The position numbers and the translations under genes were made by a program. Shown here in pieces: positions 30,978 to 35,273 of a stretch of 64,000 bases of DNA. This stretch comes from Polytrichum commune (taxonomy: Eukaryota; Streptophyta; Polytrichopsida; Polytrichales; Polytrichaceae). The stretch covers positions 34,412,001-34,476,000 of the forward strand of contig OX485806.1 of NCBI GenBank assembly GCA_950295325.1, in the 5' to 3' direction. The notes below the pieces were generated by a model that saw nothing but the letters and a program-made list of their open reading frames with translations, searched no databases and was not told where the DNA came from. Numbering within the stretch: the stretch's first letter is position 1; the number at the start of each line of letters is the position of its first letter.

Positions 30978-32710
30978 TCAAAATTTTCTCTTCAGCTGCA
31001 TTTGCACGCTCAAGGGACCGGCCTTGAAATCACCTCTGCCTTCAGTCTCGGATTCACTCGTCATCTCCTCGGAGATGGAGTCAATAATCTCCTCCGAAGC
31101 GGCTCTTGAGTTTGCTCCTCTTACTGGAGATATTGTTCCCGCGACGATCTCTGACGTTGCTGTTGTTGCCAACTGAGAGGTTGACGGCACCATCGTTGAA
31201 GCTTGCGCTACAACCTCTCTTGCCGTTGGGACTTGAGACGTAGTTTCACGCAGGCGATCGATATTCTGTTGTGAGATTGAGGCTGCGGCATCTACAACCT
31301 CTTCGATGACAAGCTGGTTCCCGTTGTCTCTCCAACTCTGTGATGACTGGCCATTTAGTTGTTGCGCAGGCCTTGAGTCAATTAGCGCGTTGATCGTCAT
31401 CGAAACCGGAGGCTGGATGTTGTACAACGCAGCACCAAATTGCACGGGCGTTTGGGATGGAGGAATGGACGCTAACCGGCGGATATGATTTTCCACCACC
31501 TGTTGGGCAGTCTGCATTGGCTGCTGGAACTGAGACGATGCTAGGAGGCTGGCTACCATGTCCGCTGGATGGTAGGCATTATTAGCTTGCAGTTGAGCTC
31601 CATTCATACTTTGAGCCAGTGCTGATTGTTGCATTGGCAACTGGCTTTCTTCTAGTCCACTTAAGGTTTTCTTTCCTTGCTGGAGCAGCTGGGATGCAAC
31701 GTCCACTGCGACGGATCCCATAGGTTGAATTGCATTCTGGTATTGTTGCTGCTTCCTTGCCAATTCGTCATGCACGTGGTTCAAGCCTTGAGCCATGGCT
31801 AGATCCGCTCCTTGATGCAACTTCATGCTGACCCCTCGGGCCATGCCCCGAGCGAGAGAGTTGACAAACTGAGAGTTGACATCGTTGATGGCTTTCTGGT
31901 TCACTTCATTGTGCACTTGGTTTAATCCTTCGGAACCTTGGCGGACCAATGTGGCAACGTCTGCGGCGACCGAAGTAGCTGGCGTGGAAAACGCTCGTAG
32001 TTGACCTTGCATCTCTTGCGCCAACTCTGACTTCTGTTTGCTTAGCTCGTCTCTCACATTGATTGCGGCTTGGGATCCCTGTTTCGCAAAGGACGTGACG
32101 TCTTGTGCAAGAGAAGATGCCGGTTGCGCAAAACTGTTTATGCTTTGGGCGAGGGCTGCCTTCTGCTTTGACAACTCATCTTGCACTCCAGCCATGCCGT
32201 GATCAGCACCTTGCTGCAGGATGTTTCCAGCCTCCCGAGCAATTGACGATGTAAGGTTTGCGCTCAAAGTCCCTCGTACCACTTGATCCTGGATCTCATT
32301 CAATGTTTGAGAACCGTTCTGAATCAAGGTTGCGACACCCTGAGCAATGGATGACCCTGGGCGATATAATGTCTGCAATTGTGTAGTCAGGCCTTGTGAA
32401 AGAGCTGCCTGTCTACTCGCCAAATCATCGTGGACCTCACTCACAGACTTACCTCCTTGTTGAATAAGACTTCCCATGTCTTTTACGAGCGCAGTTGCTG
32501 AATCTTGGTTGAAGTGTGGAAAGACATGGTTTCCCATGCCAGCTTGAGTGAGTAGATTCACTGTTTGCTGGTTAAGGAAGTCGCCGGAGGGATATTGCGG
32601 TGAATTAGGAAAGCCTGGAATATTATACCCAGCTTGCATCAATGCTTGGCCTGTTGCTAGAGCCATTGCAGAGGCTTCAGATCCAGCCGAATGCAAGGTC
32701 GCGGGTACGC
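30978..32710 (-). repeat. Internal protein repeats in exon 4 of the DMP-like gene
   Basis: Exon 4 encodes about seven degenerate repeats of 40-50 residues. Typical words are LVKDMGSLIQQG / VHDDLASRQAALSQG, VATLIQNGSQTLNEIQDQV, GNILQQGADHGMAGVQDEL / SKQKAALAQS, VTSFAKQGSQAAINVRDEL / SKQKSELAQ and VATLVRQGSEGLNQVHNEV. They are rich in Ala, Gln, Ser and Leu with heptad-like hydrophobic spacing, as in amphipathic helices of LEA or apolipoprotein type. That last comparison is about composition, not homology. Confidence 0.65.
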
Positions 32711-35273
32711 CTGAGAGAGGAACGACATCAACGAAAGACAGGATCAGCGCCACCTTCACCATTTGTCATAGCATCGTGAAACTTCACTGAGAAGAACCAG
32801 TATTGATCAATTAATTTCTCACCTGAGAGTTGTTGCGACAGCTGAGCCGCATGTAAAGCTTGAGCTGCCTGCTGGTATAGCCCATTCACGTCTTTGGATG
32901 AAAGGGAGGAACCGGCAGACTGCAACATCGAATTTGCACGGGTGAGGGCCATGGACGATTGTTTTTGGAGACTTGTCATCATCGGTGCCGACGTTGCGGT
33001 TTGAATGTCTTGATGAATTTTAAGCGCAGCATCTTTGGCACCTTGAGTGTACGCATGAGCCGCGGCCGCCAATACTGGATGTGATTCATCATGACCTGCA
33101 TTCAACAATCCTTGTAGCATTGCCTCTGCTGTGGGCGACTTCGCCGCTTCTTGGAGAGTCAAAGGCACCTGAGGAAGAAATTAGGAGGAAAACTCAAATG
33201 TCTTTTATAAACTCAACCCATGGTGTCCTTCTAGAACCCTTAAAATCGCACGAATCTATAAAACTATCTTGTAGTAACAACTCTCATAGGCATAGCCTTC
33301 TCACAAGTTGCTAATTAATACCTAACTCACATCATCATCAAGTAAATTTGAAAAGAATCAAGGCCCGGCCCCTTTGATTAGTTTCTCAACATCTATTGAA
33401 ATTAGGCAGCAACCAACCTTCACGCTCCCAATACCCGCTATGGTATGGGCAGGAGTTGGTGAGAACTAACATTCCTTTATCTTTATTTCTTTCCTCACAG
33501 GGAAAAACTTAACGACAAGCTCCCATGCACGGGACTGCAGAGTTGCAATGCTGCTGGATCTACGTACCTCTTTGCTGAGTTGCGCAATAGCATTTCCAGC
33601 TCCTGGTCCCAACAGCTTATTTGCATCCTTTTCCAGCCCCCCTTCCACTTGCTGTGCCACAGTATGCGCCATCTTTGATGCCCCATGCTGAATCTGATCG
33701 GCATACTCGCCTAACAGACCAGTAGCGATACTCTTCATCCCTTCCGGATGATGTCCATTATGGCTGGCAGCAGCACCATGATTTGAGCCATTCAACAACT
33801 TCCCAAAAAAGTGAGTCACTTTATTACCGCCATCGTCGACATCGTCATGTTTCCCAGTATTTGGCTTCCCATCGTTATCTGGCGCTCCAGCTGCACCTCC
33901 ATTGTGTGTCGACGGCTTTGGGGGCAGCTGGGGGCCATGCACTACCCCCTTGGGGTCAGGCGGCTTGTAATTATCATTTTGCGATGCAACCCTGGGAGGC
34001 AACGGGTGCGCAATGCCGTTCCGAGCAGGTGGCGAGAATGCAAAAATGGCACTGATCACAAACCCCACAAGCAGGGGTAGAGTCTTCACCACCGTGCTGG
34101 AAATGTTGGGGTAGAAGCACGTGGATACTGGGCTTGTCAGGAGGGTTAGGGTTGCGAATGCCATCGCAGCTAGAATCGCGTGCAAGAAGTCTGTAAAGTT
34201 CAAGCAGTATTGCCTGCTGGCACTGGAATAGGTGGAACCCAGTATATATTGTTTTGGTTTTTCCGGCTCCACAGGCTTTAACAGGGCCGGTCGAGCTGAT
34301 TTCTTGTCGTCCTTGTATTTTCTCCGATCTTCAATATACTTTGCAAGGCTCCTCTCGTACAAACGCAAATCGGTAAATGAAGGGTCGCCCTTGAACGAAG
34401 GATTCCAGAGCCCACTCCGGGTAACGAGTCCATGGTATACCTTGCCGTTGAACTGCATCAACCCAATAGAATTAGGATTGGTTGGTGTTAATTAATTTTA
34501 GGCCACCAAGAGCCAGGAGGCCCAAGTGGGTTATCAAACCATTTCAGCATCATCTCCTCAAGCATTCCGATCATGCAGATCTAAGACTTAGATTGAGGGC
34601 GGGTAGGACGAGGGTCATGCTCTAGGAAGGTCATCTACTTCCCCAATCCTGGAACGCCACCTCTCAGGCGCCAAATGGTGATGGTTCCCTTTACGCTAGG
34701 GTTTGTAACATAGACTAATCAGTGAGAAATTTATTCGCGTACCTGGAGGGTGTCCGTAAAGCAGACCAGCATGCACGTGCTGGCCAGGATGACGAGCATG
34801 AGGCCTGTCATGATGATCTCCGTTTGTCCGCACTTGCCATCGTTCGTGGCCAACGGCGCCAGTGTCTGGAACATGAGAAATGTGTTGGCCGGCAGTAGTT
34901 TGGTGATGTTCCCCACGATATTGGTGTCCTTGGGCTCGTCTCGTACTGCGTCGTGGGGCTGGAGCCTCTTGTGGAATTTGTCCTCCTTCAGCTTCTTCTC
35001 CCTCTTCTTCTTCTCCCTCTCCTGGGCACCGGCGTCTTTAGTCCCCACCAAGCCCACACCCTCGCCCACCTTCTTGGCGGAGTCTATCATTGCGTTCCCT
35101 GCGCCCAGGAACGCACTGCTAAGGCTTTCATTTGCCTTGGAGACGGCGTTGCTGATGCCTTCACTAATCGATGGCCGCCCTCCAGTTGGTGCATGCTGAT
35201 CAGCATCCTCCTCTTGCTGCCCGCCTTTCTCAAGATCATCTTTGCTGGGTTTCTTGTGACCAGACTCACCCAT
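30978..35273 (-). CDS. DMP (DUF679) membrane protein with a long repeat tail, 4 exons, 1164 aa
   Basis: Exons: 35273-34743, 34452-33568, 33168-32823 and 32710-30978. Donors are GTACGC, GTACGT and GTGAGA; acceptors all end in CAG; every junction keeps the frame. Residues 1-120 are hydrophilic with a KEK-rich stretch. Residues about 125-320 are a DMP core with four membrane segments: LLPANTFLMFQTLAP (126-140), TGLMLVILASTCMLVCF (156-172), a span around 264-283 and a span around 301-316, with the family's NGKVYHGLVT and CFYP positions. DMP proteins are plant endomembrane or plasma-membrane proteins of about 200-250 residues, linked to membrane remodelling and, for DMP8/9, to gamete fusion. Here an extra loop of about 45 residues separates TM2 and TM3. 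After a Pro/Gly/Asp-rich linker (328-400) comes a tail with about seven repeats (658-980), each with AxxVAxLxxQG and VxDELxxxKxxLAQ words. The end is acidic, then LKRKF. Separate DMP and tail genes are possible but no second start or stop is needed. Confidence 0.8.

Follow-up and report, generated by a model that had tools for sequence, protein, structure and literature searches.

Proteins of the DMP family are usually short, and the locus described here raises the question of whether a DMP membrane domain can be fused to a long helical tail. It lies in a window of 64,000 nucleotides from the moss Polytrichum commune (GenBank assembly GCA_950295325.1, contig OX485806.1, positions 34,412,001 to 34,476,000 of the forward strand; positions below are counted from the first letter of the window). 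There, a probable four-exon gene on the minus strand, referred to below as the long DMP, encodes 1164 residues. We favour, with about even credence, the reading that this is one gene and its product a variant DMP, in which the membrane core serves as anchor for amphipathic helices in the cytosol, and that these helices coat or sense membranes or lipid droplets. The domain, the open spliced frame, the repeats, their periodicity and their composition are seen in the sequence.

An earlier note on this DNA had claimed a DUF679/DMP core with four transmembrane (TM) segments at about residues 125-320, followed by some 835 residues without a membrane segment, and had proposed a DUF679 profile search. 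This search gave a match to Pfam PF05078 at residues 120-324 with 138.9 bits (E 1.9e-40), well over the cut-off of 25 and spanning profile positions 3-161 of 163. When membrane segments were called as hydropathy windows above 1.6, three were clear, at residues 153-171, 266-287 (two overlapping windows) and 298-316. TM1, the fourth span, is weakly hydrophobic but lies inside the DUF679 match, so that the description as four-TM depends partly on family homology and that part of the claim stands only in part. The claim on the tail was borne out: about 840 residues follow the core, and no window above 1.6 was found in the whole remaining protein beyond residue 316.

The cysteines of loops 1 and 3 lie in the aligned motifs NDGKC and STCFYP, common to the long DMP and four paralogues (L001 to L004) in the same genome. 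The authors of the AtDMP1 study consider a disulfide between the loop cysteines C58 and C147 probable, and place the termini and loop 2 of that protein on the cytosolic side; fusing GFP to the DMP1 termini led to mistargeting (PMC5383025). We infer the membrane topology of the long DMP by homology: since the AtDMP1 termini are cytosolic, its tail is probably cytosolic as well. At the position of the C-terminal GIGY motif the long DMP reads GIAH, and the paralogues read GVGY (L001), GIGY (L002), GIGY (L003) and, as taken from its open frame, GIGF (L004). In DMPs the GIGY motif is highly conserved and a length of about 200-290 residues is usual; the family is defined by the DUF679 profile, and by that profile the long gene is a member with an unusual architecture.

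Exons of 531 + 885 + 346 + 1733 = 3495 nt, with phases 0, 0 and 1, give 1164 codons and one terminal stop in an otherwise open frame, in agreement with the four exons with exactly closing phases, and the ends at 35273 and 30978, described earlier. The period-3 signal of each segment was compared with 300 shuffles. It lay above all of them in six of seven exon segments (signal-to-noise ratio 4.5-9.6), the 148 codons of exon 2 beyond the core giving 8.52; the core part of exon 2 was weak (1.86, reached by 23 of the 300 shuffles). Introns 1 and 2, the two tested, showed no period-3 signal (0.54 and 0.49), and the top value in four flanks was 2.52 (6 of 300 shuffles). Donors were scored against MAGGTRAGT and acceptors by a simple pyrimidine score, and both were ranked among the GT and AG sites of the window. 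The donors of introns 1, 2 and 3 score 7, 7 and 8 of 9, values equalled by 4.5%, 4.5% and 0.8% of GT sites. Introns 2 and 3 have acceptors that rank within the best 0.3% of AG sites; the acceptor of intron 1 is ordinary, with 25.8% of AG sites scoring equally well. Any single intron of the three, if retained, introduces an in-frame stop. We infer from the sequence that the exons form one mRNA. Retention of intron 2 could yield a short DMP isoform of 505 residues, and a minus-strand AATAAA at 33482-33487 lies shortly ahead of the stop where that frame would end.

The tail, rich in Ala, Gln and Ser, had been described as a long helical repeat tail, which proved right for residues 659-964; the remainder has no recognisable repeats. 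In a self-comparison of residues 641-985, the best 25-residue score was 64, at offset 126, and offset 47 reached 59; the shuffle maximum was 41 (n = 100). Seven diverged units of 35-49 residues each, 306 residues in total and all within exon 4, follow the order A-B-C-A-B-C-A with a super-repeat of about 126 residues, the unit boundaries having been cut by eye. Their consensus is xSxAxDVxxLxQQGxxxLxxVxDEL, and Pro and Gly punctuate the units. Super-repeats 1 and 2 are identical at 42 of 122 aligned residues. Their synonymous differences (pS 0.757) are at the level of shuffled pairing (mean 0.777) and their non-synonymous differences (pN 0.439) below the minimum of 200 shuffles (0.659), and therefore the likeness is at the protein level, although an alignment made on protein lowers pN by construction and to that extent weakens the argument.

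When the hydrophobicity spectra of the seven units are averaged, the peak falls at 98 degrees, or 3.67 residues per turn (11/3). The power there is 5.65, where 500 shuffles reached 3.15 at most, and at 103 degrees it is 2.0; bootstrapping placed the peak at 96-99 degrees. The same kind of analysis gave 98.5 degrees for apoA-I, 103 for tropomyosin and 103.5 for GCN4, these control sequences having been entered by hand. The 3-11 hydrophobic moment exceeded shuffles (p<0.05) in six of the seven units. It is the exon 4 units that carry the 11/3 case. Residues 35-76 share this period, residues 410-472 are amphipathic with a period of about 3.8 residues per turn, outside 11/3, and C-terminal to the array no significant period was found at residues 1060-1110 (p 0.449) or 1110-1150 (p 0.268). 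The array has Hdr 0.387, LH 0.02, Ch 0.156 and a mean moment of 0.34. Published values are 0.37, 0.01, 0.23 and 0.35 for Plin3, and 0.35, 0.002, 0.15 and 0.257 for Plin4 (PMC5889406). Charge, hydrophobic fraction and moment of the array are near these values, the comparison of moments being a rough one, and the weaker for it, with the best 33-mer per unit taken here and helices averaged in the paper.

In the mechanism that we favour, the DUF679 core would be seated in an endomembrane with both termini cytosolic, as reported for Arabidopsis DMP1, and would position the protein in that membrane. On the cytosolic face would lie the amphipathic helices, residues 35-76 before the core, 410-472 after it and the seven-unit 11/3 array of exon 4. 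These weakly charged helices may fold onto packing defects of a curved membrane or lipid-droplet surface, and, once folded, coat or stabilise it. Lipid binding, organelle and function are thus all conditional. Two features of the exon 4 units, an 11/3 period and a composition like that of perilipins, lend support to the earlier suggestion of a tail that coats membranes or lipid bodies; coating itself remains conjectural.

The logic of such a protein would be reticulon-like and its material perilipin-like. Several Arabidopsis reticulons carry a curvature-sensing amphipathic helix behind a four-span domain (PMC7973432), and the plant reticulons (RTNLB13 and relatives) are alike in design to the long DMP, although theirs is one short helix, not an array. 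The DMP1 authors themselves likened DMP1 to reticulons, noting a reticulon-like layout, and found that expression of DMP1-eGFP remodels the endoplasmic reticulum (ER) and tonoplast (PMC3438137). Like perilipins 3 and 4 and the exchangeable apolipoproteins, the array is 11/3 amphipathic with few aromatics, and its low charge and scarce aromatics recall Plin4. It differs from them in having no sequence match and in being attached to a membrane-spanning core, and has seven diverged units where Plin4 has 29 well-conserved 33-mers; Plin4 attaches to lipid droplets but only poorly to bilayers (PMC5889406).

Compared with Arabidopsis DMP1-10, the long DMP shares the DUF679 domain above cut-off and the two loop cysteines, and differs by its long helical termini and by GIAH in place of GIGY. 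Its 1164 residues compare with 207 in AtDMP1 (PMC3438137) and 188-289 in the peanut DMPs, and its three introns with none in most DMP genes. According to a study of 24 species, all 240 DMPs are single-domain proteins, including two Physcomitrella and two Selaginella genes. The papers drawn on also include PMC11477165 and PMC12346579. Against these lengths and single-domain reports, the proposal that this may be an undescribed DMP architecture is plausible and unproven. We found no description of a long moss DMP, and none linking DUF679 with a lipid droplet, in a literature search that covered subscription journals poorly and viewed a small sample of the broad results. The role of DMPs in gamete fusion mentioned in the earlier note is that of Arabidopsis DMP8/9 (PMC12069490), and nothing connects the long DMP gene to it.

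Several observations weigh against the favoured reading. GIAH replaces a highly conserved motif, and AtDMP1 with that motif mutated was impaired in its export from the ER (PMC5383025). Taken singly, the units have a significant spectrum (p<0.05) in four cases of seven, B1 (0.093), C2 (0.225) and A3 (0.765) failing, and their peaks spread over 95-99 degrees; A3 fails the moment test as well (0.0655). A sliding window over the array peaks at 99.0 degrees, with a power at 103 degrees of 3.32, above the 2.72 of apoA-I, and the peaks of segments 410-472, 473-587 and 961-1060, at 94-95 degrees, fall outside the 11/3 period. Units C1 and C2 are not synonymously saturated (pS 0.544), the other four of the five unit pairs having pS of at least 0.847. 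The structure prediction proposed for the tail was made with AlphaFold on exon 4 alone and on one stretch of the array paired with a shifted self-copy as second row. It drew mostly helix, which is weak support because confidence was low (mean predicted local distance difference test score 42.9 and 44.4). The unit profile was scanned over six other segments including exons 1-3, and none of them rose clearly above its 500 shuffles; the best, exon 3, reached 1.6 bits and was matched by 52 of 500 shuffles. The repeats are therefore no proof that exon 4 belongs with the core, and repeat continuity was dropped as an argument for one gene. Finally, 11-residue periods also occur in late embryogenesis abundant (LEA) proteins and in right-handed coiled coils.

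This last point leads to two other views of the tail. One takes it for a desiccation-type array like the group 3 LEA proteins, which have 11-residue repeats, folding on drying and protecting the membrane where the DMP core holds it. The Ala/Gln/Ser-rich composition and the 11/3 periodicity would suit it, but no LEA family, LEA_4 included, is among the Pfam matches listed at E<=1, and the repeat charge of 0.156 is below that of the Lys/Glu-rich LEA_4 type; we hold this view to be very improbable. In the other, for which the earlier note also left room with partner binding, the tail would serve as a helical spacer or a coiled coil, tethering membranes or binding protein partners and not lipid. 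Hendecad coiled coils of the right-handed kind are also 11/3, the low-confidence model of exon 4 contains helices of 119 and 106 residues, and there is the residual power at 103 degrees over the array. Set against these are the 98-degree peak of the averaged units, where power at 103 degrees, the region of tropomyosin and GCN4, is low, and the Pro and Gly that punctuate the units, and we judge a spacer to be quite unlikely.

The remaining alternative concerns the gene itself, which might make two products, a DMP ending in intron 2 and a tail from a separate gene or from an alternative transcript of exons 3-4. Within intron 2 there is indeed an AATAAA (33487), and the 34th intron codon is an in-frame stop; the unit profile of exon 4 does not find units in exons 1-3, and there is no tail relative in the same genome to tie the tail to a DMP. 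This is countered by the strongly periodic extension of exon 2 beyond the core, which ends in an amphipathic segment, by the donors and acceptors of introns 2 and 3 and by the closing phases, and two products seem to us unlikely.

Should transcripts confirm the fusion of core and tail that we favour, the long DMP would be an unusual and testable membrane-coating protein. The DMP1 authors were undecided between direct membrane distortion by DMP1 and action via partners (PMC3438137); a natural combination of a DMP with a large helix array of membrane-binding type would let the remodelling mechanism be tested by deletion or transplantation of the array. The protein would, moreover, be an example from plants of the class of long 11/3 helices, known from perilipins, apolipoproteins, CCT-alpha and alpha-synuclein (PMC5889406). 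A bolder version, which we put forward tentatively and consider somewhat unlikely, is that the moss independently evolved a long perilipin-like helix array fused to a DMP, a self-anchored coat that bridges from the membrane of the ER or the vacuole to lipid droplets or strongly curved membrane, and a plant design new to description. The features of the locus are listed in Table 1.

Table 1. Features of the long DMP locus, in positions of the 64,000-nt window
Feature	Position	Strand	Evidence
Whole four-exon gene model, 1164 residues	30978..35273	-	open spliced translation, period-3 signal
Exon 1, residues 1-177	34743..35273	-	spliced translation, period-3 signal
N-terminal amphipathic segment, residues 35-76	35046..35171	-	98-98.5 degrees, shuffle p 0.021; 3-11 moment 0.41, p 0.0005
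DUF679 core part 1, residues 120-177	34743..34916	-	Pfam match; six-frame match to profile positions 3-63
Intron 1, within DUF679 core; dispersed repeat of about 150 bp at about 34535-34685	34453..34742	-	
Exon 2, residues 178-472	33568..34452	-	spliced translation, period-3 signal
DUF679 core part 2, residues 178-324, extended loop 2	34012..34452	-	Pfam and six-frame profile matches, paralogue comparison
Post-core amphipathic segment, residues 410-472	33568..33756	-	94-95 degrees, 0 of 1000 shuffles as high; 3-11 moment 0.386, p 0.003
Intron 2; retention gives in-frame stop at 34th intron codon	33169..33567	-	
Exon 3, residues 473-588, last codon split	32823..33168	-	spliced translation, period-3 signal
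Intron 3	32711..32822	-	
Exon 4, residues 588-1164 and stop	30978..32710	-	595-residue stop-to-stop frame, spliced translation, period-3 signal
Repeat unit A1, residues 659-706	32355..32498	-	unit alignment
Repeat unit B1, residues 707-741	32250..32354	-	unit alignment
Repeat unit C1, residues 742-785	32118..32249	-	unit alignment
Repeat unit A2, residues 786-832	31977..32117	-	unit alignment
Repeat unit B2, residues 833-869	31866..31976	-	unit alignment
Repeat unit C2, residues 870-918 (875-918 in a second delimitation)	31719..31865	-	unit alignment
Repeat unit A3, residues 919-964	31581..31718	-	unit alignment; weakest by periodicity and moment

Relatives were searched for in the same genome (407.8 Mb covered) and in databases. 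With the whole protein at E<=10, the 21 genomic matches were all its own exons or stretches like the DMP core, none being a tail relative, and the repeat array found only itself and one stretch at E 9.53. The Pfam matches listed at E<=1 were DUF679 and a sub-threshold HTH_9, with no perilipin, apolipoprotein, LEA or reticulon family. In NCBIfam, searched with exons 2 and 4, exon 4 gave E 5.1e-4 with 19.4 bits against a cut-off of 327, and exon 2 gave E 0.033 and 0.3; in PHROGs, exon 4 had three matches, all with E of at least 0.08, and exon 2 none. The matches in these two collections were dismissed as homologues and read as matches of composition. By sequence, the PDB returned eight entries, seven of them cytochrome c oxidase subunit 3 (E 0.23-0.91, against residues 139-194) and the other Maquette-3 (E 7.8, against 710-830), and the repeat profile a single match at E=1, 2r5s, the uncharacterized protein VP0806. 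Scans of bacterial and archaeal genome contigs and of viral contigs, of low sensitivity because two short peptide patterns were used in each, gave 114 and 100 pattern matches, of which 0 were confirmed. Scanned with Rfam at gathering scores, the window yielded nothing.

The DUF679 model had six matches in the genome, two on exons of the long gene and one stretch at each of the four other loci. Three of these (L001, L003 and L004) have stop-to-stop frames of 291, 293 and 230 residues, and the fourth, L002, has an in-frame TGA. Judged from the single matched stretches, to which further exons may belong, all four look ordinary. The TGA of L002 (L002:1065-1700, contig C7:13157255-13157890) is premature and lies just ahead of the STCFYP-type loop 3 motif; a pseudogene, recoding and an assembly error are candidate explanations.

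Scattered fragments resembling the end of exon 1, a gap and then the start of exon 2 were found at L005-L009 (contigs C1:23.98-24.17 Mb, C2:54.68 Mb and C6:9.40 Mb). They break at about the same residue as the long DMP (TLQ/FNGKVYHG), several stretches have in-frame stops, and no convincing tail match was found alongside them; their appearance is that of intron-bearing copies that have decayed or been captured. Counting itself, the repeat around the L006 fragment (L006:2640-3220) has 41 matches (40 of 52 candidates scored), with clusters on contig C1 at 23.6-24.2 Mb and on contig C6 at 42-44 Mb. Sixteen of the 41 start at query base 108 or before and so take in a large part of the DMP-like stretch, unlike most of the rest. 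The repeat in intron 1 of the long DMP has dozens of copies genome-wide with 72-88% identity and is like a short interspersed nuclear element (40 of 66 candidates scored). The last residues of the protein are KRKF (window 30981-30992), which we take to be loosely like a dibasic ER-retrieval signal.

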